Shown in pieces: positions 3,649 to 49,980 of a stretch of 51,463 nt of DNA; within the stretch, counting starts at the first letter, position 1; each line of letters begins with the position of its first letter. Source of the DNA: an uncultured Bacteroides sp. (lineage in GTDB: Bacteria; Bacteroidota; Bacteroidia; Bacteroidales; Bacteroidaceae); NCBI GenBank assembly GCA_900553815.1, contig USEY01000014.1:1-51463 (forward strand). The letters run 5' to 3'. The notes below the pieces were generated by a model, which was not told the origin of the DNA, did not search any database, and saw only the letters and a program-made list of their open reading frames with translations. Position numbers and translations under genes: made by a program.

Positions 3649-4153
3649 AAACTTGCAGGAGTTAAAGAAGTTAGAAGGAGTTATCGCCCGCCTTTAGTCG
3701 GGCTAAGGAGTTAAAAGCCGGATGCCGGACATACATCCCAAGCTATCGGCTTTAACTCCTGCAACTCCTGCAAGTAAATAATATTCAACAAACTATATGC
3801 CGGCCTCTCTGGTAGCTACCAAGACCTCCCCTCGGTAGCTACCAAGGCACTGCCAAGGTAGCTACTAAGGCACCCCCGAGGTAGCTACCAAGGGAACAGG
3901 GAAGCAAGAGAAGAAGTAAGCAGCTGAATATCAGCAAAATGACAAAAATAAGCTGAATACTCATAATAGTTTACATTAATACGAATGCAAGTTTCGCAGG
4001 TTTATGATTTGTTTGTAGTTAAGAAGTTAAGGAATTAAGCCAATACTTTTGTGCAAAGTATGCCGCCCATACATCCCAAACTATTGGCTTTAACTTCTAA
4101 ACCCACCCCGGTGGGTGATAACTCCTTTTCAACTTCTCTAACTCCTGCAAGTT
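3649..4153. repeat. Composite inverted-repeat block upstream of the first HU-like gene
   Basis: The 575-bp gap 3625-4199 holds no convincing gene. Its ends, 3649-3685 and 4117-4153, are near-perfect inverted copies of about 37 bp (AACTTGCAGGAGTTA... facing ...TAACTCCTGCAAGTT). Just inside each end is a GC-rich hairpin (CGCCCGCC/GGGC and ACCCACCCCGGTGGGT). Two related inner segments share ACATCCCAA followed by GGCTTTAACT, at about 3727-3768 and 4066-4096. The 23-bp array 3811-3902 lies in the middle. The layout resembles a MITE-like or composite palindromic element, but no target duplication was identified. Confidence 0.7.
3811..3902. repeat. Tandem array 1: four units, 23-bp period, core GGTAGCTACC
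   Basis: The perfect 10-bp palindrome GGTAGCTACC (one copy ends ACT) begins at 3811, 3834, 3857 and 3880, exactly 23 bp apart. Each core is followed by AAG and then a variable, mostly C- or purine-rich 8-10 bp. The array lies about 300 bp upstream of the first HU-like gene. Its architecture matches the arrays at 8808, 15109, 26765, 28667, 41146 and 49837, although the sequence is unrelated to theirs. Confidence 0.9.
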
Positions 4154-4199
4154 TTGCACTTGCGAAACTTGAAATATTAACCCTTAAAACTTTAAAGCT

Positions 4200-4667
4200 A
4201 TGCCATTCTACAAGAAAGCATTCCACAAAAGAACCAATGTCTACTACCCGCAAGCCATTGTACAGGGCGAACCGGTAGAAACGGAAACGCTGGCCAAGGA
4301 CCTGGCCAAGATTTCCACTGTATCGAACTCGGACGTACAAGCCGTATTGGGCGACATCGCCGGCGTGATGCACACACGCATGTCAATGGGCAAGAGCGTC
4401 CACATCAAGGGACTGGGCTACTTCCGCTACGTGCTCGACACGAAGGGCGTGGAGAGACTCGAAGATTTTGACTTTAAGAAACAGGTGAAGGCCGTGCGTG
4501 TGCAGTTCACCCCCGAACGTACTATGAGCAGCAGCGGCACCTACACCCGTGCACTGGTGGACAGCGAAACGCTGGAGTGGATAGAAATGCCGCCCACTAC
4601 TCCCGACCAAGACCCGGCTGCGGGTGGCGGTGAAGAGGAAGAAGGAGGAGGAGGCAGCATGGGCTGA
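4200..4667 (+). CDS. HU-related DNA-binding protein with Glu/Gly tail
   Basis: A 155-residue protein of the bacteroidal HU-related family. It has an HU-like dimer/DNA-binding core (about residues 30-125) with VETETLAKDLAKISTVS and the strand SVHIKGLGYFRYVLDTKG, followed by a VQFTPERT region. The low-complexity tail is GGGEEEEGGGGSMG. Classical HU is about 90 residues; the longer N-terminal segment and acidic/glycine tail are typical of this subfamily. Such proteins bind or bend DNA, and the specific role is unknown. The start is chosen at the ATG after an AT-rich leader. The gene stands alone behind the composite inverted-repeat block and 23-bp array. A paralogue at 49255-49758 ends with nearly the same tail. 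Confidence 0.85.
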   Translation: MPFYKKAFHKRTNVYYPQAIVQGEPVETETLAKDLAKISTVSNSDVQAVLGDIAGVMHTRMSMGKSVHIKGLGYFRYVLDTKGVERLEDFDFKKQVKAVRVQFTPERTMSSSGTYTRALVDSETLEWIEMPPTTPDQDPAAGGGEEEEGGGGSMG

Positions 4668-4846
4668 TTGCCCCGGCCTCTCTTGCTGCTTTTCCGGTCA
4701 TACAGCCGGTCAGGAGGCTGATTTCCGGCTTCCTGATGCGGATGAGACAGTACGAAGGGAATGCTGATTCCCTACCCTGTTTCATCCGCATTTTGGTGCA
4801 GATAACCTTATATTTACGCTGAAAAGTAAAAAAAAAAAACAAATAG

Positions 4847-4879
4847 TTTAAGGGAGTAAGTGGAATTGTATTATCTTTG
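4847..4879 (+). promoter_or_regulatory. Bacteroides-type promoter for the TPR/HTH regulator
   Basis: A TTTA box at 4847-4850 is followed, after 21 bp, by TATCTTTG at 4872-4879, matching the TTTG / TAnnTTTG pattern. The gene starts at 4916, leaving a short leader. Confidence 0.6.
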
Positions 4880-4915
4880 CGCCTGTTTTCTATAATATAA
4901 CAGTAAAACAGGACT

Positions 4916-6589
4916 ATGCGCAACTTACTACCAACCCTATATACATTCATTCTGATTATCCTCTGTGCTGCCTGCCACAACCGACAGGCGCTTCCACCTC
5001 AACTGGCCAACGCCGATACACTTATCACCCGGCCGGATACACGCTCCATGCTGGAAGAGATGGGGCGGCCGGACGACAGCTATGCCGCTGCCGTGTGGAA
5101 CGCCATCATGTATCACCGGTTTGTGGCTGACTATACACCGAAGAGTTTTGCCGTTTGGAAAGGTACTGTGCCCGGCGACAGCTTGCGACAAGCGGCGCTG
5201 GCATATTTCGAACAGCATCGTGACCCTTATTTCCTGGCTCTGATAAATTATGACGAAGCCTCTATAGACTTCTTGGCCGACCGCATGGACGTGGCGCAAG
5301 AAAAACTGCTGGATGCTGCCCGCCAGTTGGAAAAGGTGGACGAGGGCTATCGGTTGAAATACCTGGTTTATAGCCGTCTGGGAACTATTTCGTTCTACCA
5401 CCGCATGCCCGAAGCGGAAGATTATTACACGAAAGCACATGAGGCCGCCCTGAACGGCGGGAGCAAAGCTTTCATAGCCTCTACCCTGCAAATGATGGCT
5501 CTCTGCCGCAGCAACAAGGAAGACTATACAACGGCCCTGGGCTACATGCACAGAGCCATCGGCATTGCCCGGCAACTCAACTATGCCTTGCTGGAAGAAT
5601 CAATATGGGGCGACATGTCGAGAGTGTACTTTCAGAAGGGCGATGCCGACAGTTGCCTCGTAGCCGCAAGAGCCTCTGCGAAGATACGGGTCAGCAGGGG
5701 GCTGTCGCCTTATCAGTATGTCACGGCTCTTTATTCGATGCGTTCGTTCTTACAGAAACAACAACCCGACTCGGCCCTGTTCTATGCCGACCGTGCCATA
5801 GAGACGGGCGACATATATACCCAGCAGGAGGTGTACGACGCCCTGCGCAATTATTACCGTACGCAGAAACTGACGGCCGATGCCGACCGCTACGACCGCC
5901 TCTACCTGCAAGTCACCGACTCGATAGATGTGCTGAGCAAACTCAGCACCCTGAAACAGGAGCAACACAACTACAACCGTGAACAGACCCGCAACGAAGT
6001 GCATAAGGCCGAGAACGAGCGCAACCACAGCATCCTGATAGGCGCGGCTGTGGCAGTGGTCCTGACAGTAATCATCGTCTTCGGCCGCAGAGCCTATCTG
6101 CGCCGGCTGCGTAGCGGCGACCGCCGGCTACACGAACACGAGGCCACCATCAGCACCCTGCAAACCAATCTGGAGGAGGCACAGACCCAGGTACGCGAAG
6201 TGGGCGGACGCCTGGAGCAGGTGAAGAAACGCGGACGGCAACTGAGCGAAACGCTGGCCAACGACACCCAACTGGTGCGCGACCTGCGCCAGCAGCCCCG
6301 GTTCCTGCAGGATGCCGAGTGGGAGCAGCTGCGCCTGCTTGCCGACCGTGTTTACGACAACTACAGCACCCGCCTGCATCAGCGCTTCCCCCAACTGACG
6401 GAGCAGGAAGTACGCCTGTGCCTGCTCATCCGCCTGCAATTCATCAATGCCCAGCTGGCCATCCTTTTCGGCGTGTCGCCCGCTTCTGTGTCGCAAAAGA
6501 AGTTCCGGTTGAAGAAGCACCTCACTACCCTGACCGAAGATGGTTTCCCTGAAGGCATGACGCTGGAGCAATGGGTGGAGGAGAACTGA
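4916..6589 (+). CDS. Membrane-tethered TPR regulator with C-terminal HTH
   Basis: A 557-residue protein. The N-terminus carries a lipobox-like sequence (LIILCAAC). A helical TPR-like region spans about residues 60-340 (for example RLKYLVYSRLGTISFYHRMPEAEDYYTKA). One transmembrane helix (SILIGAAVAVVLTVIIVFG) lies at about 372-391, then a charged coiled coil at about 400-470, and a C-terminal LuxR-like helix-turn-helix at about 494-536 (LTEQEVRLCLLIRL...FGVSPASVSQKKFRLKKHL). The layout suggests periplasmic TPRs that sense something and pass a signal through the membrane to a cytoplasmic DNA-binding end. This type is common in Bacteroidota; the targets are unknown. It is a single gene with its own promoter. 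The transglutaminase-like gene downstream has a separate promoter. Confidence 0.8.
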   Translation: MRNLLPTLYTFILIILCAACHNRQALPPQLANADTLITRPDTRSMLEEMGRPDDSYAAAVWNAIMYHRFVADYTPKSFAVWKGTVPGDSLRQAALAYFEQHRDPYFLALINYDEASIDFLADRMDVAQEKLLDAARQLEKVDEGYRLKYLVYSRLGTISFYHRMPEAEDYYTKAHEAALNGGSKAFIASTLQMMALCRSNKEDYTTALGYMHRAIGIARQLNYALLEESIWGDMSRVYFQKGDADSCLVAARASAKIRVSRGLSPYQYVTALYSMRSFLQKQQPDSALFYADRAIETGDIYTQQEVYDALRNYYRTQKLTADADRYDRLYLQVTDSIDVLSKLSTLKQEQHNYNREQTRNEVHKAENERNHSILIGAAVAVVLTVIIVFGRRAYLRRLRSGDRRLHEHEATISTLQTNLEEAQTQVREVGGRLEQVKKRGRQLSETLANDTQLVRDLRQQPRFLQDAEWEQLRLLADRVYDNYSTRLHQRFPQLTEQEVRLCLLIRLQFINAQLAILFGVSPASVSQKKFRLKKHLTTLTEDGFPEGMTLEQWVEEN

Positions 6590-6715
6590 AATCTGCCAAT
6601 GTAGAGACATGTATTTGGTGAGCAATTCAAATATATCTGTTTTTCAAATAGTTAGTTATTTCGTATATAGTCAGAATGTAGAGATGATATTCGTACAACC
6701 TTAATTGATTATCAC

Positions 6716-6723
6716 TATTTTTG
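6716..6723 (+). promoter_or_regulatory. Candidate -7 element (TATTTTTG) for the transglutaminase-like gene
   Basis: TATTTTTG matches TAnnTTTG. Transcription would begin near 6730, so the upstream in-frame ATG at 6705 cannot be the start. No good -33 TTTG was found at the usual distance. Confidence 0.4.
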
Positions 6724-6770
6724 TCGGCATAAAAAACGAAACAACAAAACTATTTAAAATGAATTGCAGA

Positions 6771-7991
6771 ATGAAAACACTGAAAAAAACATGGTTAATC
6801 GTATTTATCAGTTTAGTCGGCATCACAAACCTGTGGGCACAGACTGATGCCGAACTGAAGTTCCTGGCCAAGGCCGACTCACTGACTACACAGCTCCTCA
6901 ACGCTTATAACGGGAAAGACTATCCGGCAGCCGAAGCTTTCTGCCTGGAGATTATCAACCTCTACGATGCACACGCAACGCAGCTGTCCGAAAGCTATGC
7001 CTACTACAAATACGCCAACTACTACAACATGGCCAGTATGCAGGCAAAACAAGGCAAGAAAGAGGAAGCTGCTACCAGCCTGGCCAAAGCGTTGGACAGC
7101 GACAGGATGGAAATCAGCTACAGCCAGGTAATCAACGATGAGGACCTGAAAGGCATTCTGGATGCAGAAGTGCTGCAACCTGTCTTGAAGCGGCTGAAGG
7201 AAACCTCCGATTATCTTTCTATCCTGAAGAATGCGCCGGAATATACCCGCACGCAGCAGCCCGACAGCCTGCCGCAGATAGTCTATGCACAGGCCGACGA
7301 CCCCAATCTGGTGCGTGTCCGCGAATATTTCCGGCTGGACAGCGTGGCCGTGGCAGGCGACGAAGTGGCTACCATCAAACGTATCCTGACCTATATCCAC
7401 GACAAAATACGCCACGACGGACAGAACGGCAACCCGGCAGGCGGAAACAACTCCATCAACTATGCCGAAGCCTGCAAGGACGGCAGCCGCGGACTGAACT
7501 GCCGTGGGCTGGCTACGGTGTTGAACGAGTGCTACCTGTCGATGGGCATCCCGTCGCGCGTCATCACCTGCATGCCAAAGACATACATTACCGACTGCCA
7601 CGTCATCAACGCCGTCTACTCGTCTGCCCTCGGCAAATGGCTCTGGATAGACCCCACGAACAATGCCTGGGTGACGGACGACCGGGGCAATATGCTGAGT
7701 GTGCAAGAGGTACGCGAACGGCTCAGAAGCGGCCAGCCCGTACAAGTCAATGAAGAGGCTAACTGGAACAATGAAAAGAAGACCACGACAGAAGACTATC
7801 TGTACGAGTACATGGCCAAGAACCTGTTCTACCTGGAAAGCTGGACACGCTATGGGTTCAACACGGAAAGCGACCATGAGAACCTCATCAACTACATCTT
7901 CCTGCAGCCCACCGGTTGCGACAGCAGTCAACGGAATTCGAGGAACCTGTCTGTCAACGACGACCAATATTTCTGGCAGGCACCCCGATGA
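6771..7991 (+). CDS. Secreted transglutaminase-like domain protein
   Basis: A 406-residue protein from the ATG at 6771. This start gives a clean signal peptide ([24 protein letters not shown]); an ATG 12 bp upstream is possible. The N-terminal part is helical and TPR-like. The C-terminal half is a transglutaminase/cysteine-protease-like domain with the full triad: Cys244 in [11 protein letters not shown], His277 in [10 protein letters not shown] and Asp294 in WIDPTNN. Members of this fold cleave or cross-link amides, or act as peptidases. The substrate here is unknown, and action in the periplasm or at the surface is inferred from the signal peptide. The next gene, yihA, has its own promoter overlapping the end of this gene. 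Confidence 0.8.
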
Positions 7992-8004
7992 AGAACCGGC
8001 CTTA

Positions 8005-8036
8005 TTTGTCATATCTCCTGTTTTTGCTTACCTTTG
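8005..8036 (+). promoter_or_regulatory. Strong Bacteroides-type promoter for yihA
   Basis: TTTG at 8005-8008, a 20-bp spacer and TACCTTTG at 8029-8036 give a textbook match to the Bacteroides sigma-ABfr consensus. The ATG of yihA is at 8092, so the leader is about 45-50 nt. Confidence 0.8.
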
Positions 8037-8091
8037 CAGGCACGAGTTATACAAAAACAATACTTCACACCATAAACCCAGAAGAAGAAAG

Positions 8092-8706
8092 ATGGAGATA
8101 ACCAGCGCCGAATTCATTATCAGCAACACCGACTTCAGAAAGTGCCCGTCGGGCATGTTCCCCGAGTATGCCTTCATTGGCCGCTCGAACGTGGGCAAAT
8201 CGAGCCTTATCAATATGCTGACCAACCGTAAAGGGCTGGCCATGACCTCGGCCATGCCGGGAAAGACCATGCTCATCAACCACTTCCTGATAAACAAGAG
8301 CTGGTATCTGGTGGACCTGCCGGGCTATGGCTACGCCAAACGCAACCTGAAGGGACAGGAGCAGATACAGAAAATCATAGAAAGCTACATATTGGGACGC
8401 GGACAGATGGCTTGCCTTTTTGTACTGGTAGACAGCCGGCACGAACCGCAGCGCATAGACTTGTCGTTCATCGAATGGCTGGGCGAGAATGCCGTACCCT
8501 TTGCACTGGTCTTCACCAAGGCCGACAAGCTGACAACCGGAAAGCTGAACAGTAATATCCGCCGCTACCTGGAAATATTGCAGGAACAATGGGAGGAACT
8601 GCCCCCCTACTTCATCACTTCGTCGGAGAACCGGACCGGACGGCAAGAGATGCTGGATTATATAGAACAGATAAACCGGGATGTGGCAGCACAGACTGTC
8701 AAGTGA
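8092..8706 (+). CDS. yihA: Ribosome biogenesis GTPase YihA/YsxC (EngB)
   Basis: A 204-residue TRAFAC-class GTPase acting in large ribosomal subunit assembly. Motifs: G1 GRSNVGKS at residues 30-37, the switch region around TSAMPGKT, G3 DLPGYGYA from residue 75, and G4 TKAD at 142-145. Length is normal for the family. The frame is open upstream to 7699, but the ATG at 8092 is the start because it lies just after a strong promoter and the upstream frame overlaps the transglutaminase-like gene with unrelated sequence. The gene ends 102 bp before tandem array 2 and is insulated from the convergent downstream gene by a terminator. Confidence 0.93.
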
Positions 8707-8807
8707 AATAAGACGTGCTGACTACTGAGATGAATTGTCCTGAAATAATAAGTTGATTTCCTTTTGAATGTCAAAACATAGGATGACGATACTTTTGGTG
8801 CGCGTCA

Positions 8808-8893
8808 TTCTGCGCTCGCAGAATACGCCCTTCTCCGAACACAGAATGAGTTGTTCTCCGAGCGCAGAACGCACCGTTCTGTAAATACAGGAA
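8808..8893. repeat. Tandem array 2: four units, 23-bp period, TTCTgCG..CGCAGAA dyad
   Basis: Units beginning TTCT start at 8808, 8831, 8854 and 8877, exactly 23 bp apart. Each has an internal inverted repeat, clearest in the first (TTCTGCGCTCGCAGAA) and also TTCTCCGAGCGCAGAA and TTCTGTAAATACAG. Spacers of 7 bp are not conserved. The array lies between yihA and its terminator. Confidence 0.88.
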
Positions 8894-8917
8894 GTCAAGC
8901 TAAGCCGGAAAAAATAA

Positions 8918-8966
8918 AATCCCTCCCACCCTTGCGTCGACACACAAGTGCGGGAGGGATTCTTTT
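8918..8966. terminator. Bidirectional intrinsic terminator between convergent genes
   Basis: The stem AATCCCTCCC...CTTG pairs with CAAG...GGGAGGGATT. It is followed by TCTTTTG on the plus strand and by a T-rich stretch on the minus strand. It separates yihA (plus) from the redoxin-like gene (minus). Apart from the array and this hairpin, I see nothing else in 8707-9058. Confidence 0.8.
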
Positions 8967-9058
8967 GTTGTATTCATTCCCTCTTTTGACACTTTCTTCA
9001 GAACAGCCCCGGGCGTCATGCCACTGCATAAGCTCTCGTCGGGCCCCTAAAGAAACAT

Positions 9059-9613: not shown

Positions 9614-9638
9614 GTAATTCGGTTTTGGTTAATACTAT

Positions 9639-9676
9639 CCGGGACTGCCATCTCTTTGGCAGTGATTTCTCCCCGG
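9639..9676 (-). promoter_or_regulatory. Nested hairpin in the 5' leader of the redoxin-like gene
   Basis: Read on the plus strand, CCGGG (9639-9643) pairs with CCCGG (9672-9676), and ACTGCCA (9644-9650) pairs with TGGCAGT (9657-9663). The structure lies between the inferred transcription start and the start codon, so it would form in the leader RNA. Its function is unknown. Confidence 0.55.
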
Positions 9677-15104: not shown

Positions 15105-15210
15105 CCCTAAGACGGCACCTTTTCCTACATAAGGCGGCACCTTTTCCTACATAAGGTGGGGAGTTATCCTACATAAGGTGGCGAGTTATCTTACATAAGG
15201 TGGGGAGTTT
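15105..15210. repeat. Tandem array 3: five units, 22-bp period, inside the carA-carB gap
   Basis: Units carrying CCTACATAAGGnGG (first copy diverged) have their AAG at 15109, 15131, 15153, 15175 and 15197, exactly 22 bp apart. Two variants of the inner segment occur: GGCACCTTTTCC and GGGGAGTTATCC. The internal dyad is weak (CCT...AGG). The array would be transcribed as part of the carA-carB message if the genes form an operon. Confidence 0.85.
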
Positions 15211-26713: not shown

Positions 26714-26754
26714 AGTTTCCCTCCCGGAATCGACATTACTGCAAATATAGTCAT

Positions 26755-26853
26755 GTTTCATCTTGTTTCATAAGCCCTGAAACATTGTTTCAGAAGCATT
26801 AAAACATTGTTTCAGTTGTTTTGAAACACTGTTTCAGTAGCTATGAAACATTA
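26755..26853. repeat. Tandem array 4: four units, 22-bp period, TGAAACA-N-TGTTTCA dyad
   Basis: GTTTCA begins at 26765, 26787, 26809 and 26831, exactly 22 bp apart, with an extra TGTTTCA at about 26754. Three units carry the inverted repeat TGAAACA/TGTTTCA, with one mismatch in the second. The last half-unit supplies an ATG at 26843 that is not the asnB start. The array fills the gltD-asnB gap. Confidence 0.88.
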
Positions 26854-26890
26854 TTATTCAAATTATCCACTTATTAAAAAATCAGATATT

Positions 26891-28585
26891 ATGTGTGGAA
26901 TAGCCTGCATCTTTAACATCAAGCAACAAACGCCTGAACTGAGACAGAAAGCTCTCACCATGGCGAAACGCATACGCCACCGCGGACCCGATTGGAGTGG
27001 CATCTACTGTGGCGGATCAGCCATTCTGGCCCATGAACGACTGTCTATCGTTGACCCACAAAGTGGCGGACAGCCTCTTTTCTCGCCCGACCGTCGACAA
27101 ATACTGGCTGTAAACGGTGAAATCTATAATCATCGTGACATTCGCGCCGACTTTGCCGATGAATATAATTTCCAGACAGGCAGTGACTGCGAGGTTATAC
27201 TTGCTTTATATCGCCGTTATGGCACGGACTTTATTGAACGGTTAAGCGGCATCTTCGCTTTTGCTCTTTACGATGAGGAGCGTGACGAATTTCTCATAGC
27301 CCGCGATGCTATTGGCGTTATACCATTATATATAGGCTACGATGCCGATGGAACGGTTTACTGCGCCAGTGAACTGAAAGCACTTGAAGGACTATGCTAC
27401 AAGTATGAACCTTTCCTGCCAGGCCATTATTATTGGAGCCGTGAGGGCAAGATGCACCGTTGGTATAAACGAGATTGGACGGAATATGACGCTGTGAAAG
27501 ACCGTTATACCTCATTACCCGCCAACGATGCTTACCAAGCACAAGTGGCTGATGTGCGAAATGCTTTGGAAGCTGCCGTTCGCAGACAACTAATGAGTGA
27601 CGTACCCTACGGTGTGCTGCTCTCCGGCGGATTGGACTCGTCGGTTATTTCCGCCGTTGCAAAGCTCTATGCCGACCGTCGCATCGAGACCGACGGACAG
27701 CAGGCTGCCTGGTGGCCACAGCTCCATTCCTTCGCTGTAGGCCTGAAAGGTGCACCCGACCTGGAGAAGGCACGACTGGTAGCTGAACATATCGGCACCG
27801 TACATCATGAAATCAACTATACCATACAAGAAGGACTGGACGCCATCCGCGATGTAATTTACTACATTGAGACCTATGATGTCACCACTGTACGAGCCTC
27901 CACACCGATGTATTTGTTAGCACGTGTCATCAAATCAATGGGTATCAAAATGGTACTCAGCGGCGAAGGAGCCGATGAGGTGTTTGGTGGTTATCTGTAC
28001 TTCCACAAAGCACCCGACGCACGTGCTTTTCATGAAGAAACTGTTCGCAAGCTGTCTAAGCTCCACCTCTACGATTGCCTGCGAGCCAACAAAAGTCTCT
28101 CGGCCTGGGGTGTGGAAGGACGTGTTCCCTTTCTTGACAAGGAGTTTCTCGATGTAGCCATGCGACTGAACCCTGCGGTAAAAATGTGTCCAGGTCATAC
28201 GATTGAAAAAAAGATTGTCCGAGATGCTTTTGCTTCACTACTGCCCGAAGAGGTAGCTTGGCGTCAGAAAGAGCAATTCTCAGATGGCGTAGGCTATTCG
28301 TGGATTGATACGCTGAAAGCAATGACTACAGCAGCTGTCAGCGATGAACAAATGGCCCATGCAGCCGAACGTTTCCCCATCAATCCTCCACAGAACAAGG
28401 AAGAATATTATTATCGCAGTATATTCGAGGAACACTTCTCCAGCGACAGTGCCGCACGTTCCGTACCTAGTGTACCCAGCGTAGCATGTTCTACTGCCGA
28501 GGCTTTGGCTTGGGATGCTTCCTTCCGTAATCTGAACGACCCAAGCGGCCGGGCGGTAGCAGGTATACATGAACAAGCCTATTAA
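26891..28585 (+). CDS. asnB: Asparagine synthase B (glutamine-hydrolysing)
   Basis: A 564-residue enzyme that makes asparagine from aspartate, ATP and glutamine. The start is the ATG at 26891 because the next residue must be the nucleophile (MCGIACIFN); an in-frame ATG at 26843 would bury it and lies in the repeat array. The N-terminal Ntn glutaminase has RIRHRGPDWSG and HERLSIVDP. The synthetase domain has the pyrophosphate loop SGGLDSS at 245-251, and later SGEGADEVFGGYLYF and GRVPFLDKEFLD. The length and C-terminal extension match AsnB of enterics. It is the third gene of the plus-strand arm. Confidence 0.95.
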   Translation: MCGIACIFNIKQQTPELRQKALTMAKRIRHRGPDWSGIYCGGSAILAHERLSIVDPQSGGQPLFSPDRRQILAVNGEIYNHRDIRADFADEYNFQTGSDCEVILALYRRYGTDFIERLSGIFAFALYDEERDEFLIARDAIGVIPLYIGYDADGTVYCASELKALEGLCYKYEPFLPGHYYWSREGKMHRWYKRDWTEYDAVKDRYTSLPANDAYQAQVADVRNALEAAVRRQLMSDVPYGVLLSGGLDSSVISAVAKLYADRRIETDGQQAAWWPQLHSFAVGLKGAPDLEKARLVAEHIGTVHHEINYTIQEGLDAIRDVIYYIETYDVTTVRASTPMYLLARVIKSMGIKMVLSGEGADEVFGGYLYFHKAPDARAFHEETVRKLSKLHLYDCLRANKSLSAWGVEGRVPFLDKEFLDVAMRLNPAVKMCPGHTIEKKIVRDAFASLLPEEVAWRQKEQFSDGVGYSWIDTLKAMTTAAVSDEQMAHAAERFPINPPQNKEEYYYRSIFEEHFSSDSAARSVPSVPSVACSTAEALAWDASFRNLNDPSGRAVAGIHEQAY

Positions 28586-28644: not shown

Positions 28645-28760
28645 TCACACCCTTTCACACTAAGACTGTGAAGCTGTCACAAACGGACTGTGAAGCCATC
28701 ACATAGAAACTGTGAAACCTTCACATAGGGAGTGTGAAACTGTAACATCCTAACTTTGAT
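28645..28760. repeat. Tandem array 5: four to five units, 22-bp period, TGTGAA...TCACA dyad
   Basis: TGTGAA begins at 28667, 28689, 28711 and 28733, exactly 22 bp apart, each followed by a TCACA-like arm (TGTCACA, CATCACA, CTTCACA, TGTAACA). Degenerate half-units flank the array: TCACAC on the left and ACTTTGA on the right. It occupies the start of the 662-bp asnB-dapF gap. Confidence 0.85.
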
Positions 28761-41145: not shown

Positions 41146-41240
41146 GTTTCATGCCTTGAAACTAATGGTTTCATACGTTGAAACTAACGGTTTCATCCTT
41201 TGAAACTGATGGTTTCATGCCTTGAAACGAATCTGAAACT
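41146..41240. repeat. Tandem array 6: four units, 22-bp period, GTTTCA-N5-TGAAAC dyad
   Basis: GTTTCA begins at 41146, 41168, 41190 and 41212, exactly 22 bp apart. Each is followed by 5 bp and TGAAAC, making a 6+6 inverted repeat. A final TGAAAC lies at 41234. The array lies in the 455-bp gap between the Nif3-like gene and DUF805. Apart from it and the terminator at 41334, the gap shows nothing else. Confidence 0.9.
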
Positions 41241-42351: not shown

Positions 42352-44871
42352 ATGAACAATCAATTTTCACAACGAGTTTCAGATGTTATCACATACAGTA
42401 AAGAGGAAGCTTACCGTTTGGGCAACAGCTCTATAGCACCTGAGCATCTTCTGTTGGGCATCCTGCGCGACGGAAGTGGAAAGGCTGTGGAGATTCTGCT
42501 CAAGCTGAATGTGGATTTGAAACAGATAAAACAACAGATTGAAAGTTTCCTGAGGGTAGATGATGAAGAAGATACACTGAATGACAAGGAAATAGAGTTC
42601 TCCCCACTCAGCAACAAGATACTAAAAATGTGCATTTTGGAAGCACGGCTATTGCAAAGCGAAACGGTAGACACTGAGCATATTCTGTTGGCCATACTGA
42701 AAGACGGCGACAACCTGGCCAGCTCTGTTCTTGAAGAGCGGCATGTCACCTACCAATCGGTATACGAACTGCTGTCGCTGAAACACAATGCCAATTTCAG
42801 AATGGGATTTACAGAAGAAGATGATGAAGACGAAGAAAGCGGAATGCCGTCGTCCAACAAGTCATCGTCGCAATCTATGGGTCCCTACTCCACCCAAAAG
42901 AAAACGACTGCCAACGATACTCCCGTACTCGACAACTTCGGGGTCGACATGACAAAATTGGCAGAAGAAGGAAAGATGGACCCTGTAGTAGGTCGTGAGC
43001 GTGAAATAGAGCGTCTGGCACAGATACTGAGCCGACGCAAAAAGAACAACCCTATCCTGATAGGCGAGCCGGGCGTCGGTAAGTCAGCCATTGTTGAAGG
43101 ACTGTCACTGCGCATCACACAGAAAAAAGTGTCGCGCGTGCTCTTCGACAAGCGGGTCATCATGCTCGACATGGCATCGGTAGTGGCCGGTACCAAATAC
43201 CGTGGTCAGTTCGAAGAACGCATCCGCTCCATCATCAAAGAGTTGCAGAAGAACCCAAACATCATCCTATTCATCGATGAGATACATACCATCGTAGGCG
43301 CAGGTGCAGCTGCCGGCTCCATGGATGCCGCCAACATGCTGAAGCCAGCCCTGGCACGTGGCGAAATACAGTGCATCGGTGCCACTACACTCGATGAATA
43401 TCGCAAGAACATTGAGAAAGACGGTGCCTTGGAACGTCGTTTCCAGAAAGTAATAGTAGAACCGACTACTGCCGAAGAGACACTGCAAATCTTGAACAAT
43501 ATTAAAGATAAATACGAAGAATACCACAACGTGAACTACACCGAAGACGCGTTGAAAGCCTGCGTAAATCTGACCGAGCGCTACATCAGCGACCGACACT
43601 TCCCCGACAAGGCCATCGACGCTCTCGATGAGGCTGGCTCGCGTGTACACCTTTCTTCTATCTCCGTACCCAAGGAAATCGAAGAACAGGAGAAGCTGAT
43701 AGAAAATGCACGCACCCAGAAGACGGAAGCCGTAAAGTCGCAAAACTATGAATTGGCCGCCAGCTTCCGCGACCAGGAGAAGGAACTGTCCAAACGCCTG
43801 GAGCAGATGAAAGAAGACTGGGAAAAGAAACTCAGAGACGATCGCCGTACGGTAGACGAAGAAGATATTGCCAACGTAGTTTCTCTCATGTCAGGCATTC
43901 CCGTACAACGCATGGCGCAGGCCGAAGGTGCCAAACTGGCCGGTATGAAAGGTGTGCTCCAGTCCAAAGTCATTGCACAGGATGCAGCCATCGAGAAACT
44001 GACCAAAGCCATCCTCCGTAGCCGCGTAGGTCTGAAAGACCCCAACCGGCCCATTGGAACTTTCCTGTTTCTGGGACCTACCGGCGTAGGTAAGACCTAC
44101 TTGGCCAAAGAATTGGCAGAATTCATGTTTGGCAGCACCGATGCCTTGATACGTATCGACATGAGCGAATACATGGAGAAGTTCACCGTGTCGCGCCTTG
44201 TTGGTGCCCCTCCGGGCTATGTAGGTTACGAAGAAGGCGGACAGCTGACCGAACGTGTGCGTCGCAAGCCCTACTCCATTGTACTGCTCGACGAGATTGA
44301 GAAAGCTCATGGCGATGTCTTCAATCTTCTGCTGCAAGTCATGGATGAAGGCCGCCTGACCGACAGTAACGGACGTACCGTTGACTTTAAGAATACCGTC
44401 ATCATCATGACATCCAATGTCGGTACACGCCAGCTGAAGGATTTTGGCGCTGGCATAGGCTTTGCCGCCAGACAACGTATTGACAACAAGGAATATGCCC
44501 GCGACGTCATCCAGAAGGCACTGAACAAGACCTTCTCGCCCGAGTTCCTGAATCGTATCGACGAGATTATCACCTTCGACCAACTCTCTCAAGAGGCTAT
44601 CCGAAGCATTATCGACATCGAGCTGAAAGGACTTTACCGTCGCATCGAAGCTTTGGGCTACCGTCTGGAGTTGACCGATGATGCCAAGAACTTCCTGGCG
44701 ACCAAAGGCTATGATGTACAATATGGTGCCCGTCCATTGAAACGCGCACTTCAAAACTATCTGGAAGACGAACTGTCCGAGTTGCTCATCACGACCGAAA
44801 TGAAGCCAGGCAACGTGATAAGCGTATCGGCCAATACGGAAAAGGATAAACTGGTTGTGACCGTTAAATAA
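42352..44871 (+). CDS. clpC: ATP-dependent Clp protease ATP-binding subunit ClpC
   Basis: An 839-residue AAA+ unfoldase that feeds proteins to ClpP. Two Clp-N repeats come first (about 1-145, with [15 protein letters not shown] and [15 protein letters not shown]). AAA1 follows with Walker A GEPGVGKS at 238-245, then a UVR-type coiled middle domain ([18 protein letters not shown]). AAA2 has Walker A GPTGVGKT at 575-582, and the ClpB-D2-type C-terminal domain ends the protein. The UVR motif identifies ClpC rather than ClpA or ClpB. It is monocistronic, with its own promoter and a strong terminator before htpG. Confidence 0.94.
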
Positions 44872-44927
44872 CTTCTTTTTCTCAGGAAACAAGCAAATTC
44901 GACATATTTCTGTCGCTCCAACCGTCA

Positions 44928-44962
44928 AAATGTCAGTCTTTCCCAGACTGGCATTTTTTTTG
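44928..44962 (+). terminator. Intrinsic terminator after clpC
   Basis: AATGTCAGTCT pairs with AGACTGGCATT (one G-T pair) around a 5-nt loop, followed by a T-run. Confidence 0.88.
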
Positions 44963-45017
44963 CCTGTCACTTTTCCGTTAAATCAATTCATCGAACAAAT
45001 TTAAAACTATAAACGAT

Positions 45018-47066
45018 ATGCAAAAAGGTAACATTGGGGTAACTACTGAAAACATCTTCCCCGTCATCAAAAAGTTTTTGTACAGCGACCACGAAATATT
45101 CTTGCGCGAATTGGTATCAAACGCAGTCGACGCTACCCAGAAACTGAAGACATTCGCCTCCATGGGCGAGTTCAAGGGTGAACTGGGCGACCTCACCGTA
45201 CATGTATCGGTTGACAACGACCGCATCATCGTATCCGACCGCGGTATTGGTCTCACCGCCGAAGAGATTGACAAGTACATCAACCAGATAGCCTTCTCGG
45301 GAGCCAACGACTTCCTCGAGAAGTACAAGAACGACGCCAACGCCATCATCGGCCACTTTGGTCTCGGTTTCTACTCTGCTTTCATGGTAGCCAAGAAGGT
45401 GGAAATTATCACCAAGTCCTACAAGGACGACGCCAAGGCCGTGAAATGGACTTGCGACGGCAGCCCCGAGTTCACCATCGAAGATGCTGACAAGGCCGAC
45501 CGTGGTTCTGACATCATCCTCTACATTGACGATGATTGCAAGGAATTCCTCGACCACAACCGCATCCAGTCACTACTGAAGAAGTACTGCCGCTTCCTCC
45601 CTGTGCCCATCGCATTCGGAAAGAAGAAAGAATGGAAAGACGGCAAAGAAGTGGAGACAGCAGAAGACAACGTCATCAACGACACCTGCCCTCTGTGGAC
45701 ACGCAAGCCCAGCGAACTGAAGGATGAAGACTACAAAAAGTTCTATGGCGAGCTCTACCCCATGGCCGACGAGCCCCTCTTCTGGATTCATCTGAACGTA
45801 GACTATCCCTTCCACCTGACCGGTGTGCTCTACTTCCCGAAGGTGAAGAGCAACATCGAGCTCAACAAGAACAAGATACAGCTCTACTGCAACCAGGTTT
45901 ATGTCACCGACTCCGTCGAAGGTATCGTACCAGACTTCCTCACCCTGCTCCACGGAGTGCTCGATTCGCCCGACATCCCGCTAAACGTATCGCGTTCATA
46001 CTTGCAGAGCGACTCAAACGTAAAGAAGATTTCTACCTACATCACCAAGAAGGTAGCCGACCGTCTGCAATCCATCTTCAAGAACGACCGCAAACAATAC
46101 GAGGAAAAGTGGAACGACCTGAAGATATTCATCGACTACGGCATGCTGACGCAGGAAGATTTCTACGAACGCGCCAAAGACTTTGCCCTGCTGACCGACA
46201 CCGACGGCAAGTGCTACACTTACGAGGAGTACAAGACCCTGATTAAGGACAACCAGACCGACAAGGACGACAACCTCATCTACCTCTACGCCAACAACAA
46301 GGAGGAGCAATACGCTTACATCGAGGCAGCCAAAAACAAAGGCTATAACGTGCTGCTGATGGACGGACAGCTCGACATCGCCGTCGTAGGCATGCTGGAG
46401 CAGAAGCTGGAGAAATCGCGCTTCATGCGTGTGGACAGCGACACCGTGGACAACCTCATCGTGAAGAAAGACCAGACCAAGGACGCCATTGTCGAAGGCG
46501 ACAAACAGGAAGCTCTGTCGGCCATCTTCAAGAGCCAGCTGCCAAAAGTAGAGAAAGCCGAATTCAACATCATGGCACAGTACATGGGCGAGAACAGCGC
46601 ACCCGTTATGATTACCCAAAGCGAGTACATGCGCCGTATGAAGGAAATGGCCAACATACAGGCTGGCATGAGCTTCTACGGTGAAATGCCCGACATGTTC
46701 AACCTCGTGCTCAACGCCGACCACGCCCTCATCAAGCGTATCCTCGACGACGAGAACCAAACCTGCGCCGCCCAAGTAACTCCCGTTCAGCAGCAGATGG
46801 ACGAAACCAATGCCCGTCTTGGCGAACTGAAGAAGAAACAGGAAGGCAAGAAAGACGAGGAAATTCCTACTGCCGAAAAGGACGAAGTCAGCGAACTGGA
46901 CAAGAAATGGCAGGAACTGAAGCAGCAGAAAGAAAACATCTTTGCCAACTATGCTGCCGGCAACAAAGTAGTGCGCCAGCTCATCGACCTCGCCCTGCTG
47001 CAAAACGGCATGCTGAAAGGCGAAGCACTGAACAACTTCGTAAAGCGCAGCATCGAGCTTATCTGA
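45018..47066 (+). CDS. htpG: Molecular chaperone HtpG (Hsp90)
   Basis: A 682-residue Hsp90. The N-terminal GHKL ATPase has FLRELVSNAVDATQKLK, VSDRGIGLTAEEID and GHFGLGFYSAFMVA. The middle domain (IHLNVDYPFHLTGVLYFPK, PLNVSRSYLQSD) and the C-terminal dimerisation domain follow. It is longer than E. coli HtpG (624) because of a Lys/Glu-rich coiled insert near the C-terminus (about 600-640, LGELKKKQEGKKDEEIPTAEKDE), seen in other Bacteroidota. It follows clpC on the same strand but is separated by a terminator. No heat-shock operator is visible. Confidence 0.95.
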   Translation: MQKGNIGVTTENIFPVIKKFLYSDHEIFLRELVSNAVDATQKLKTFASMGEFKGELGDLTVHVSVDNDRIIVSDRGIGLTAEEIDKYINQIAFSGANDFLEKYKNDANAIIGHFGLGFYSAFMVAKKVEIITKSYKDDAKAVKWTCDGSPEFTIEDADKADRGSDIILYIDDDCKEFLDHNRIQSLLKKYCRFLPVPIAFGKKKEWKDGKEVETAEDNVINDTCPLWTRKPSELKDEDYKKFYGELYPMADEPLFWIHLNVDYPFHLTGVLYFPKVKSNIELNKNKIQLYCNQVYVTDSVEGIVPDFLTLLHGVLDSPDIPLNVSRSYLQSDSNVKKISTYITKKVADRLQSIFKNDRKQYEEKWNDLKIFIDYGMLTQEDFYERAKDFALLTDTDGKCYTYEEYKTLIKDNQTDKDDNLIYLYANNKEEQYAYIEAAKNKGYNVLLMDGQLDIAVVGMLEQKLEKSRFMRVDSDTVDNLIVKKDQTKDAIVEGDKQEALSAIFKSQLPKVEKAEFNIMAQYMGENSAPVMITQSEYMRRMKEMANIQAGMSFYGEMPDMFNLVLNADHALIKRILDDENQTCAAQVTPVQQQMDETNARLGELKKKQEGKKDEEIPTAEKDEVSELDKKWQELKQQKENIFANYAAGNKVVRQLIDLALLQNGMLKGEALNNFVKRSIELI

Positions 47067-47122
47067 CACAGGTAAAAGAATGGGGGGCGGCCACCGCTTG
47101 AAGACCGCCCACCCCCAATAAG

Positions 47123-47177
47123 AAACGGGACAGACATCCACTTTCCACAGTGGTTGTCTGTCCCGTTTGTTTTTTAT
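47123..47177 (+). terminator. Intrinsic terminator after htpG
   Basis: A perfect 14-bp stem, AAACGGGACAGACA (47123-47136) with TGTCTGTCCCGTTT (47155-47168), with an inner CCAC/GTGG pairing, followed by GTTTTTTATT. A second GC-rich hairpin (GGGCGG/CCGCCC) precedes it at about 47082-47110. Confidence 0.9.
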
Positions 47178-47239
47178 TGCCTACAGCTCCTCACCCTGGG
47201 AGGAAGGCTGGAGATGAAGCTTTGGCCGGAAGTGAAGTC

Positions 47240-48502
47240 TCAGGCAGCCGCCCCACTACTGAACAGCATGGAACCCAAGAAATCCCACAAGCCCATGTAG
47301 CGCAACACGAACTCTATGCCGCCCCACACGTGGTTGGGCATCGTCAGGTCGGTCAGTGTGGACGTGGGCCAAAGCTCGTGCGCACTGACCGCATTGCTGT
47401 AAGGCACAAAATCGTCCTGGGGCGAGTGATAGAGATAGATGGTGCTCTGCGGCTTGGTCGACGCATTCACCAGCGAATTGGCCTGCAATGCCGCAACGAC
47501 AGCCTTCACGTCGGCGTTGTCATTGTACGTCGGAGCCGCAAAGAAGTCGGGATGCACCACCTGCCTAATGTCCGTGCCCAAGGCATCGTGCCACTCCGAC
47601 AATGGCCGTGTAGAAAACATCTTGTTCAGCCCGTTCTCTATCACCACCGGCGCATACAGGTTTTCATCGATCACCCTCAGCTGCTCGCCGTAAACCATTC
47701 CACGTATCAGATAAGGCAAGTAACCGCTGCGTGCATACGGCACGGTAGCGTTGGCCGGAGAAAGGAACGTCTGCAAGATGCTCTCCAGGTCATAGGCACC
47801 GCCGCCGGCATACACCCCGCGGATGCGCCCCGCCTGTCCGCGACGCTCCAGCTCCAGCAACGTGGCCATGGAGGCCTGTCCGCCCTGCGAGTAGCCCATC
47901 AGCTCTATCTTGTCGGCGTCCTCGCCCACTCCCTTCTGCCGCAGGTACTCGCGTGCCGCCTCAATCATGTCCGCGCAGGCCGTCCCCGTCAGGCGGGCAT
48001 GCAGGTACGGGTGCTGGCGGTCGGCAGTCTGGCTGGCACCGTAGCCCAGATAATCGGCCATGACCACCACATGCCCGTTCACCACCGGCATCATCTCATA
48101 ATAAAACATCTGTATGGAAGGCGCTTCCTCCATATTGAGCGTGCCGTGCTGTATGCTCAGCAAGTGGTCGTAAGACGTCGTCCCGCTCGGCATCGCCACC
48201 ACGCCCGATGCCTCCACCTGGCCACCCTCGGCAGCCGTGGTAGTGTAAGTGATGGATGCCACATCCACGTCGCACAAGAACGCCATCAGCATTGATTCGG
48301 GCAGCTCAATGCCCTGCGACGCGGCATATCCGGCCAGCATCTCAGCTATCTCCGCCTTTCCGATATGCTGTTCGGCGGTAACTCCCGTCAGATAAAGGTT
48401 CTCGGAAGGATTGTCACCCGGCAGGTCGTCGTCCGTCTGGCAAGCCACACAACACAACAGCAATCCTAATACAAACAATTTACATGCTACAACTTTATTC
48501 AT
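47240..48502 (-). CDS. Secreted alpha/beta-hydrolase lipoprotein
   Basis: A 420-residue protein with a lipoprotein signal (FVLGLLLCCVAC, lipid on Cys21). The alpha/beta-hydrolase fold shows a strand followed by ADYLGYGAS, and the nucleophile elbow GYSQGG with Ser near residue 203. Asp and His candidates are in LYHSPQDDFVPY and TMPNHVWGG. The pattern resembles secretory lipases and prolyl-oligopeptidase-like esterases. The substrate (lipid, acyl sugar or peptide) cannot be told from the sequence. It is a single gene with a TATTTTTG -7 element on the minus strand at plus 48543-48550, facing the repeat hotspot. Confidence 0.82.
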   Translation of the reverse strand: MNKVVACKLFVLGLLLCCVACQTDDDLPGDNPSENLYLTGVTAEQHIGKAEIAEMLAGYAASQGIELPESMLMAFLCDVDVASITYTTTAAEGGQVEASGVVAMPSGTTSYDHLLSIQHGTLNMEEAPSIQMFYYEMMPVVNGHVVVMADYLGYGASQTADRQHPYLHARLTGTACADMIEAAREYLRQKGVGEDADKIELMGYSQGGQASMATLLELERRGQAGRIRGVYAGGGAYDLESILQTFLSPANATVPYARSGYLPYLIRGMVYGEQLRVIDENLYAPVVIENGLNKMFSTRPLSEWHDALGTDIRQVVHPDFFAAPTYNDNADVKAVVAALQANSLVNASTKPQSTIYLYHSPQDDFVPYSNAVSAHELWPTSTLTDLTMPNHVWGGIEFVLRYMGLWDFLGSMLFSSGAAA

Positions 48503-48542
48503 ATACTATTCCTTACTATTGAGATAAATACTAATAACCGGA

Positions 48543-48572
48543 CAAAAATACACTTTTCAAGAATAATACAAA
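48543..48572 (-). promoter_or_regulatory. Candidate promoter for the alpha/beta-hydrolase gene
   Basis: On the minus strand, TTTG (plus 48569-48572), an 18-bp spacer and TATTTTTG (plus 48543-48550). The spacing is slightly short. Confidence 0.5.
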
Positions 48573-48619
48573 ATAGCTGGGGACATAATATAAAAATAGC
48601 AGCAAAGGACGACAGGACG

Positions 48620-49250
48620 TAACACCGCACTGGATGCGGGACCTAGGCACACAGATGACACGGATAAAAAGTGATTAGTGGTAAGTGGTCAGCGGTAAGC
48701 AGTCAGCAGTAAGCACCGCACCCACGGGCTTCAGCCCGTCATCCCGCACTTGATGCGGGACCTAAGCACACAGATGACACAGATGGGACAGATGACCACA
48801 AATATGTGTGTACCCTCCTGCTCCCCTAACATAGGGGAGCTGCCCGCAGGGCTGAGGGGTATCGTTATTCAGTGGTAAGTGGTCAGTGGTTAGCGATAAG
48901 CGGTCAGTGGTAAGCACCGCGCAGCCACGGGCTTCAGCCCGTCATCCCGCACTTGATGCGGGATCTAAGCACACAGATGACACAGATGGAACAGATGACC
49001 ACAGATAAAAAAAGATCTGCGACACAGCATGCTCGTACCGTTATACCGCGCAGCCCACTCCCCTCCTTCGGGAAGGAGGGGTGGCCAAAGGCCGGGGTGG
49101 TAGGTCTTTACGATAGCTTGTATATCAATGCTTTATGCTTTTACCTACTACCTCCCCCTTCGGGTACTCCTCCTTCCAGAAGGAGGAGAGCCGGAGATAC
49201 CACGCCCGCCTGTCCACCCCTCTCCTTCCAGAAGGAGGACAGGAGGTGAG
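48620..49250. repeat. Repeat hotspot: REP-like hairpins and 7-bp tracts
   Basis: This gap holds no convincing gene. Two copies of a long module are present (about 48670-48800 and 48871-49003). Each has six 7-bp units (AGTGGTA type; 48670-48711 and 48871-48912), then the hairpins ACGGGCTTCAGCCCGT and TCCCGCACTTGATGCGGGA, then ACAGATGACACAGATG runs. A partial copy lies at about 48627-48663. Other hairpins: CCCCTAACATAGGGG (about 48822), CTCCTTCGGGAAGGAG (about 49061), and TCCTTCCAGAAGGAGGA twice (about 49167 and 49223). Confidence 0.8.
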
Positions 49251-49254
49251 GCCC

Positions 49255-49758
49255 TCATCCCATCGAGCCGCCACCTTCTTCCTCGCCCCCCGGCTCCTCC
49301 GTTGTGCCGCCGCCCGAGGTCTGCCCCTTCACCTTGCGGTACGAGGCGATGCTGCCATACTTGATGCCGTCTTCCACCACGCCTTCCACCTCGAACTGCG
49401 CACTGGCCAGCGCGGCCTTCATCGTCTTCGAGGGGGTAAAGATGAACTTCGGGTTGCGTATCATCGAGGCCGTGTCGAAATCCTCGAGGTTGGCCACGCC
49501 CTTGCTGCCAAACGACAGGCGCAGCTTGCCCAGGTCGCCGATGGTGATGGTCACGCCGCTCAGCAGCAGCGCAATCAGCTTCTCGCTCGTCACCTCCATG
49601 GCATGTTTATACTCGCCTTTCGACAGCGTAGTGTCGGCCACGGCCATCGCCGCTGTCTCGTCCGCGTCGAGCGCACCCTTGCTTGCCGGAACGGCATACC
49701 ACTGTTTTTCTTTTGTCTGCGGGTTGACCCTAAGGGCCAGGTTAAAATTCGCTTTCAT
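49255..49758 (-). CDS. HU-related DNA-binding protein with Glu/Gly tail (second copy)
   Basis: A 167-residue member of the bacteroidal HU-related family. The N-terminus (MKANFNLALRVNPQTKEKQWYAVPASKGALDADE) is followed by an HU-like core with VTITIGDLGKLRLSFGSKGVANLEDFD and FTPSKTMKAALASA, and ends in a tail (GGGTTEEPGGEEEGGGSMG). It aligns in layout with the protein at 4200-4667 and shares the terminal GGGSMG, but the cores differ enough to be separate paralogues. Its GC content by eye is higher than that of the nitrogen block. Its leader contains a small hairpin (AGCAGA/TCTGCT, 49788-49805) and, further up, tandem array 7. The target and role are unknown. Confidence 0.85.
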   Translation of the reverse strand: MKANFNLALRVNPQTKEKQWYAVPASKGALDADETAAMAVADTTLSKGEYKHAMEVTSEKLIALLLSGVTITIGDLGKLRLSFGSKGVANLEDFDTASMIRNPKFIFTPSKTMKAALASAQFEVEGVVEDGIKYGSIASYRKVKGQTSGGGTTEEPGGEEEGGGSMG

Positions 49759-49831
49759 GATAATTAGTTTTTAAATGGTTAATAATGAGCAGATTAAGTT
49801 CTGCTGATAATATTCTTGCAAAAAGACGCCG

Positions 49832-49980
49832 GTGTAGCCGGAACGGGAGCAGCGTGCAGCCGGAACGGGAGCAGCGTGCAGCCGGAACCGGAGCGGCGTG
49901 CAGCCGGAACGGGAGCAGCGTGCAGCCGGAACCGGAGCGGCGTGTAGCTGGAACGGGAGCGGCGTGTTTGCGGGGACGCA
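49832..49980. repeat. Tandem array 7: six to seven units, 22-bp period, GCCGGAAC(C/G)GGAGC core
   Basis: GCCGGA (last copy GCTGGA) begins at 49837, 49859, 49881, 49903, 49925 and 49947, exactly 22 bp apart, with a decayed copy at 49969. Variant units contain the dyad CCGGAACCGG. Because 22 is not a multiple of 3, several overlapping open frames of repetitive peptide appear here and are artefacts. The array is about 80 bp upstream of the second HU-like gene. Confidence 0.92.

Follow-up and report, generated by a model that had tools for sequence, protein, structure and literature searches.

Published descriptions of bacterial satellites that combine a constant unit size with a variable sequence go back at least to 2021, and the available parts of the account give no tested mechanism for them (PMC8161180). 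According to the same parts, Subirana and Messeguer described units of 20-21 or 52 nt in Bacillus and of 20-23 nt in many groups, proposed a protein that needs a constant repeat size, and noted two helix turns (PMC8161180). Here we describe seven intergenic tandem arrays of 22- or 23-bp units in a 51,463-bp stretch of DNA (47.7% GC) from an uncultured Bacteroides sp. (contig USEY01000014.1), the whole of which is called the window below, together with related arrays in other Bacteroidales. The window arrays resemble the published satellites in being tandem and noncoding, with at least four units of 20-23 nt, and the arrays described here share with them, as far as the available text goes, a constant size, several families per genome and species specificity. 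A 2020 study by the same two authors reportedly states sizes of 22/44 and 52 nt. In contrast to the arrays here, the Bacillus satellites have short conserved sequences in each species, and neither an inverted half-site grammar nor in-phase mixing of families nor an orthologous array whose motif changes appears in the available parts of these accounts (PMC8161180, PMC6749651).

The second precedent is BrickBuilt of Porphyromonas gingivalis, an intergenic minisatellite of 23-nt units, flanked by leader and tail in a miniature inverted-repeat transposable element (MITE), described in 19 copies (PMC4596501). Judged from the available parts of that paper, the window arrays share with it 22/23-nt tandem repeats without spacer, an always intergenic location, a varying unit number, and conserved and free positions within the unit, and the 41-nt repeats of a sister MITE resemble double-step arrays of one relative, G303 (PMC4596501). 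BrickBuilt is one sequence family with leader, tail, terminal inverted repeats and many copies (PMC4596501). The window arrays, in contrast, differ in sequence among themselves, have no common flanks and show no terminal inverted repeat by eye; a head and tail were seen for family A of another relative, G018, and not for the window arrays. P. gingivalis belongs to the same order as the window organism.

Repetitive extragenic palindromic (REP) sequences and bacterial interspersed mosaic elements (BIME) are likewise palindromic, intergenic and mostly not located between divergent genes. The arrays differ from them in that G018 lacks a Y1 transposase, in the rigid 22-bp lattice and in having several families per genome. 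A bacterial sequence periodicity of ~11 bp has been linked to supercoiled DNA (PMC4132750, PMC516772); 22 is 2 × 11, about two helical turns, but that periodicity, as the available text presents it, is a diffuse dinucleotide signal, while here discrete arrays with dyads are found. Half-site grammar, a common register of different palindromes and a motif-changing orthologous array were not found among the titles and abstract openings listed in searches of the open-licence literature. Arrays that keep their period while the sequence varies have been published before, and the Bacteroidales arrays are therefore a variant of a known, unexplained kind.

The window arrays and the period of their relatives

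The first-pass annotation of the window, made from the letters alone, had reported seven intergenic arrays with exact steps of 23 bp (at 3811 and 8808) or 22 bp (the five others). All seven are present, outside the genes that are backed by Pfam matches, as follows.

Array 1, 3811..3893: GGTAGCTACC palindrome, 4 units of 23 bp (starts 3811/3834/3857/3880), upstream of an HU-HIG gene
Array 2, 8808..8893: TTCTGCG/CGCAGAA-type dyad, 4 units of 23 bp (starts 8808/8831/8854/8877), between a stop codon (8706) and a terminator-like hairpin with a T-run (~8920-8965, read by eye)
Array 3, 15108..15209: CCTACATAAGGTGG..., 4-5 units of 22 bp (starts 15124/15146/15168/15190), dyad not significant, between carA and carB
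Array 4, 26763..26852: TGTTTCA-N7-TGAAACA dyad, 4 units of 22 bp (starts 26764/26786/26808/26830), in the gltD-asnB gap
Array 5, 28655..28748: TCACA...TGTGA dyad, 4 units of 22 bp (starts 28655/28677/28699/28721), downstream of asnB
Array 6, 41146..41232: GTTTCA-N5-TGAAAC dyad, 4 units of 22 bp (starts 41146/41168/41190/41212), between a DUF805 gene and a NIF3-family gene
Array 7, 49832..49967: GTGCAGCCGGAACGGGAGCAGC, 6 units of 22 bp (starts 49832...49942), dyad not significant, ~75 bp upstream of a minus-strand HU-HIG gene

The units are contiguous, and several sequence families of one length occur within 51 kb. Tandem Repeats Finder (TRF) detected six of the seven arrays, array 2 being too diverged for it. 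That the motif changes from locus to locus while the period is kept, as had been claimed, was borne out across genomes and at orthologs of the gltD-asnB gap; within the window, arrays 4 and 6 are related (72% over 67 bp, E 0.006), both having GTTTCA/TGAAAC half-sites, whose centres are spaced differently in the two. The flanks of different window arrays (400 bp each side) gave no mutual match at E ≤ 0.05. The accompanying claim that no single mobile repeat had been copied holds for the window and fails for the class, since G018 and another relative, G154, each carry palindrome families repeated at tens of loci. Clustered regularly interspaced short palindromic repeats were rejected as an identity, the units being contiguous with no pattern of conserved repeat and unique spacer. 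No claim is made for four as a preferred unit number, as detection itself favours arrays of ~4.

To survey periods, a detector of ungapped periodicity (at least 2.8 units) was run on the window and 80 asnB-bearing loci of relatives, 1,460,514 bases in all, ~181 kb of it intergenic by simple calls of open reading frames (ORFs). Genes were called as greedy longest ORFs, and labels of intergenic location and orientation are therefore approximate; at array 7 the automatically chosen neighbour was a spurious plus-strand ORF and not the minus-strand HU-HIG gene, the gap being tandem in both cases. The detector returned 49 intergenic arrays and 24 arrays internal to ORFs, the latter excluded from the counts that follow. 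The intergenic set had periods of 8-9 (19 arrays), 14-15 (10), 21 (3), 22 (14), 23 (2) and 24 (1), and no intergenic array of period 16-20 or 25-60 was detected in the 1.46 Mb. Five of the 20 arrays of period 21-24 lie in the window and 15 elsewhere; for period 22 alone the numbers are five and nine (n = 14). Three order-2 Markov resamplings of the same DNA, a randomised control of the kind that the first-pass annotation had suggested, yielded 7 arrays between them, each with period 8, and 0 of period 9-60. Thus, the even spread of periods over 15-40 bp that it had named as a refuting outcome was not found in the sampled DNA, where intergenic periods above the short classes peak at 21-24. Diverged arrays (e.g., 8808, L279 and L269) escape the thresholds, and at L033 a period-37 array (2.76 units) fell just below the limit. 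With gaps allowed and genes included, TRF gave 87 arrays, 38 of period 21-24 and 21 of these of period 22.

Ten further Bacteroidales genomes were also sampled. Intergenic arrays of period 22 occurred at 7 per 100 kb in G154, 3 per 100 kb in G018 and 1 per 100 kb in G254; over 500 kb, G018 had 12 of period 22 and no other period within 16-60, and G154 had 10 of period 22 and 4 of 23. Arrays of period 14 numbered 13 in the 500 kb of G154 and none in the 500 kb of G018. In our view the 7/14- and 8-bp arrays are low-complexity sequence that forms a class apart, and 22 is a peak of its own. G303 (240 kb) had intergenic arrays with periods of 23, 42, 42 and 46, and G311 (22 kb) had no intergenic array of period 18-60. 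Inside ORF calls, periods of 22, 40, 41, 41 and 42 (G303), 23 (G336) and 41 (G311) were found. The double-step arrays of 42 and 46 bp (L126, L127, L130 and L234 of G303) are reminiscent of the 41-nt repeats of MITE464 of P. gingivalis. That the window arrays belong to a Bacteroidales-wide class of intergenic minisatellites is well supported.

The gltD-asnB gap and the lattice register

The gap holding array 4 (26714..26884, plus strand, ~172 bp in the window) was compared with its counterparts in a first set of 26 relatives and in a genus-level set (the genus of G303, to which G002 and G004, carrying the B. acidifaciens and B. cellulosilyticus loci, also belong). In the genus set, 135 of 158 genomes matched and 59 were compared, the 20 best and 39 more, with gltD found in 58. 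The gap was 50 bp or shorter in 17/26 and 25/58 genomes, respectively, and held a 21/22-bp lattice in 14/59; the genus-set frequencies are not free of bias, since the 39 added genomes were picked partly for a long-looking gap. Low-complexity periodicities (L244, L257, L274 and L286) were left out of the lattice count, which comprises the following.

Orthologous arrays with flanks in common: G262, G435, G388, G525, G465, G493, G413, G403 (two units), G449, G515
Lattices of a 17-bp dyad plus 5 bp with GTTTC/GAAAC half-sites, by eye and sub-threshold for the detector: G274, G380, G455
Lattice of 42-bp period: G303

The remaining gaps were empty or held other short elements. The gap measures just 32 bp in G409, the closest relative at asnB, and 30 bp in array-rich G154. 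A different inverted element, of GCGGATT-like motifs, was seen in the gaps of L011, L246, L249 and L251.

Alignment of orthologous gaps, another check that had been proposed, showed the array at the same place in the ten orthologs. Nine of the ten aligned gap-free within the array, and the tenth (G403) was shorter by exactly 44 bp inside it, that is, by two units. G413 carried a 22-bp insertion just beyond the array, and the other indels of the gap (10, 7, 4 and 1 bp) all lay outside it. Between G435 and G449, array identity fell to 0.58 over 92 bp with no indel, compared with 0.87 over the first 250 bp of asnB. Thus, given gap-free alignments at array identities down to 58%, position, 22-bp step and mostly unit number persist at this locus while the motif changes. 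Because array and flanks are common to the ten genomes, the gltD-asnB array is inherited there; the window array is likened to them by architecture only. By eye, no terminal inverted repeats or target duplications were seen around the window gltD-asnB array, whose ends were not mapped against empty sites. At the NIF3 locus, no array of period 18-60 was detected upstream of the gene, where the window has array 6, in 30 loci (flanks of 1.5 kb or less); one of the 30, L114, has an array downstream of the gene.

The step was also kept between different motifs. In the surveyed families of G018 and G154, neighbouring sites were almost always 22 bp apart (23 in one G154 family), with isolated spacings of 21 or 23 and multiples where a unit was too diverged to count. 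G018 has four palindrome families of the same length and different sequence, and single arrays mix palindromes of families A and B in one 22-bp register, within ~1 bp. Two 42-bp repeats of G303 each hold two different dyads 21.0 bp apart, and in its 46-bp repeat the dyads are 23.0 bp apart. Linkers between copies of family A are merely 41-42% identical.

Half-sites and competing explanations

Dyad strength was compared with column shuffles, 100 per array for a set of 51 intergenic arrays of period 20-24 and 1000 per array for the window. Dyads were significant (p ≤ 0.05) in 29/51 arrays, several of which are of one family and hence not independent. In the window, arrays 1 (p 0.004), 2 (0.001), 4 (<0.001), 5 (0.005) and 6 (<0.001) beat the shuffles, so that a dyad in most units, as first described, holds for five of the seven arrays; the CCGGAACCGG dyad quoted for array 7 is not a consistent feature of it (p 0.86). 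Inverted half-sites at integral helical spacing were therefore found for the majority of arrays and not for arrays 3 and 7. Since dyads are significant in only part of the arrays, the 22-bp step is more general than the dyad.

Next, we examined whether the two arms vary together. In five families with enough copies, pairing at variable arm positions was mostly not significantly above the independent expectation, with units chosen by a mismatch limit to consensus that may bias slightly against covariation. In family A of G018 (51 units), the core AAAC is near-invariant and the outermost base is C or G, paired at 0.61 versus 0.57 expected; in family B (27 units), a free A/T position was paired at 0.33 versus 0.52. 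Positions 6 (p < 0.001) and 7 (p 0.04) of family A and position 1 of the G154 AGTGCA family (p 0.002) did covary. With these three positions excepted, neither compensatory nor G.U changes were found to preserve the stems. In tandem-gap arrays with a significant dyad, the 512 sense-strand cells comprised 453 Watson-Crick pairs, 7 G.T, 16 A.C and 36 other mismatches, so that G.U pairs were not favoured (7 versus 16 A.C; p 0.09, in the opposite direction); the plus strand in other gaps (309 cells) had 258, 15, 16 and 20, respectively. These results indicated that arm variation is the signature of duplex-DNA half-sites more than of a folded strand.

Placement between genes bears on the possible role. 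The 49 arrays with both neighbours called lie in 32 tandem, 13 convergent and 4 divergent gaps. Divergent gaps are under-represented (4/49 versus 28% of intergenic bases, p = 0.0006), the convergent excess among the 49 arrays is not significant (p = 0.12), and within tandem gaps no clear preference was seen, the upstream stop being closer than the downstream start for 18/32 arrays. The avoidance of divergent gaps and the lack of a clear side preference argue against promoter-bound operators as the main role.

We tentatively favour, at somewhat below even confidence, the explanation that the arrays are intergenic minisatellites with a constant step of 22 bp (21-23) and lineage- or locus-specific half-sites, forming a phased lattice for a dimeric protein. 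Among the three mechanisms offered in the first-pass annotation, phased duplex sites for a dimer fit best, because the arms are mostly independent half-sites and different dyads keep register. In each array, double-stranded DNA sites would form a lattice that faces one side of the helix, with the half-site usually present as an inverted pair and a step of about two helical turns. An inferred dimeric protein, or several related ones, would occupy the sites side by side and would need the spacing more than a fixed sequence. Whole units would be gained or lost by slippage or recombination, and some families would also have spread through the genome inside larger dispersed elements. The Bacteroidales arrays make the open mechanism question of constant-size satellites testable, and they offer useful material in a step-keeping, motif-replacing orthologous array, mostly independent half-sites, and dozens of natural variants in dispersed families for work on binding and phasing. 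A dimeric protein, if found, would represent a new kind of spacing-read DNA mark; if none turns up, the constant step would suggest a duplication process as yet unknown.

Several observations weigh against this explanation. A fixed-step mutational process, or common descent of the arrays, would also keep the period. The half-sites differ among families, and one sequence-specific protein cannot read all of them. No significant dyad was found in 22/51 arrays, including window arrays 3 (p 0.28) and 7 (p 0.86), whose dyads were not above column shuffles, and a dimer site is not demonstrated for those. The TRF picture is blunter than that of the detector, as 9/87 arrays have periods of 16-18 and 6/87 of 33-76, the rest beyond the 21-24 group being of 10-15. 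Presence is patchy, with no intergenic array of period 18-60 in 220 kb of G224 or in 100 kb each of G187, G019, G262 and G336; G262 nonetheless has an array at gltD-asnB. The low indel rate within arrays is not clearly special, because net flank lengths are near-constant too: in G018, the conserved head block of family A stands ~280-300 bp before the array in six copies with a clear anchor (net lengths 280, 280, 281, 282; 301, 302), three further copies at 332-366 being probably misanchored. Finally, counts of HU-HIG genes, which adjoin two window arrays, do not follow array density among ten relatives. Indel purging in the G018 arrays (by pairwise counts, 1.5 versus 15-16 gaps per 100 substitutions in the flanks) had been considered and was dropped in view of the near-constant flank lengths.

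A possible, if doubtful, alternative is that the arrays are non-autonomous MITEs of the BrickBuilt kind, composed of leader, 22/23-bp minisatellite and tail, mobilised by the transposase of an insertion sequence and sometimes worn to the minisatellite alone. Besides the P. gingivalis precedent, with its 23-nt minisatellite, leader, tail and 19 copies (PMC4596501, in its available parts), the dispersed families speak for such an origin. Family A lies within a longer dispersed element, nine copies in the G018 sample having a common conserved head block and tail blocks, and its pattern has 81 forward and 80 reverse matches in G018 and 0 in 14 other genomes of that genus. With up to one mismatch allowed, a palindrome of G154 has 96 matches there and is present in 12/59 other genomes of its genus sample, only four of which (18, 11, 8 and 7 matches) exceed the reversed-pattern control (0-1). 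Part of the class thus behaves as a dispersed element, with families that are species-specific where tested. However, no terminal inverted repeat was seen by eye in family A, the flanks of the window arrays do not match one another, and the gltD-asnB array, shared with its flanks by ten genomes, is inherited there. A MITE origin would account for the spread and not for the constant step.

Fixed-step amplification without function, in which slippage or a mobile-element process makes and homogenises ~22-bp units, appears rather unlikely. Hairpins would promote slippage and templated correction, so that palindromes persist and the period records the machinery and not a protein. The same period in dyad-free arrays, the 44- and 22-bp indels in and just beside the orthologous array, a family B array of G018 with at least 17 near-identical units, and the patchy, species-specific distribution are all consistent with such a process. 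We know of no process with a 22-bp step, which counts against it. Moreover, the step is kept across the poorly conserved family A linkers, different dyads stay in phase, and templated correction predicts paired arms, while most variable positions were not paired above chance.

It seems improbable that the arrays form a length code and not a letter code, a two-turn half-site lattice read by fast-evolving dimeric proteins that organise the chromosome. The point behind this idea is that families A and B together are spread more evenly than random and favour different arcs of G018, as if they were interchangeable marks. Chromosome positions were taken from exact-pattern matches over the whole circle of this one genome. 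Family A elements (44, among the matches listed) had 1 spacing below 20 kb versus 9.1 expected (P = 0.0001), and A and B together (80, among the matches listed) had 16 versus 27.8 (P = 0.0002), an evenness that is weaker at limits of 30 and 40 kb (P 0.05 and 0.06). The arc from 1.83 to 2.91 Mb (1.08 Mb) holds 4/44 A and 15/36 B elements among the matches listed. An origin-centred placement of family A was rejected, as dnaA, at 2.95 Mb, marks the edge and not the centre of the A-poor arc.

We give little credence to the idea that the arrays are transcribed into rows of hairpins with a role in stabilising or processing the 3′ ends of mRNAs; among the mechanisms of the first-pass annotation, RNA hairpins are the weakest. 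The arrays do avoid divergent gaps, array 2 has a stop codon on one side and a terminator-like hairpin on the other, and B. coagulans satellites are reported as transcribed in the available parts of two papers (PMC8625621; PMC8161180). RNA hairpins are disfavoured because the arms mostly vary independently, the three positions above excepted, and G.U is not favoured on the sense strand. In addition, perfect 10-bp palindromes such as GGTAGCTACC leave just a 3-bp stem with a 4-nt loop, hairpins do not require a fixed 22-nt step, and an Rfam gathering search of the window gave 0 matches.

REP/BIME-type repeats processed by a REP-associated tyrosine (Y1) transposase have next to no chance of being the explanation: they share palindromes, dispersal, rarity between divergent genes and species-specific families with the arrays, and array-rich G154 has two Y1_Tnp matches above cut-off, but none was found in array-rich G018 or in G003 and G450, a match of any kind occurred in 2/10 genomes (above cut-off in one), and there are several families per genome.

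Neighbouring genes and other repeats of the window

By Pfam matches, the window carries carAB, glmS, gltBD, asnB, dapF and genes for an ammonium transporter, a type III glutamine synthetase, a ClpC-like ATPase and HSP90, and its gene order is also present in Bacteroides loci (e.g., L007 and L015). The two genes next to arrays 1 and 7 match HU-HIG (PF18291).

4200..4667, plus strand: HU-HIG gene, downstream of array 1
49255..49758, minus strand: HU-HIG gene, adjoining array 7

HU-HIG was considered as the partner protein from this adjacency and rejected, as gene counts in genomes do not track arrays: 8, 18, 24, 8 and 3 in the array-richer G018, G154, G003, G450 and G451, versus 29, 5, 3, 26 and 9 in the array-poorer G224, G187, G019, G262 and G336.

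The asnB protein (L001; window 26885-28585) is 91% identical to that of Bacteroides caecigallinarum ET21, compared with 77% for gltB and 74% for glmS; the higher value possibly reflects uneven inheritance of asnB, or merely a slower-evolving protein.

Array 1 is flanked by inverted copies of a short element, GGAGTTATCGCCCGCC...GGCTTTAACTCC (3650-3775 and 4015-4150; 63 bp, 83%), and letters related to this element recur near the right end of the window (50435-50600). A pyrimidine-rich array with a period of 7/14/23 bp, CTCAACTCTCCACT, at 50075-50205 resembles the separate 7/14-bp low-complexity class. The intergenic DNA at 48630-49010 and 49995-50030 holds repeats of ACACAGATGACACAGATG and AGTGGTAAGTGGTCAG as well as hairpin elements with GCGGGA.

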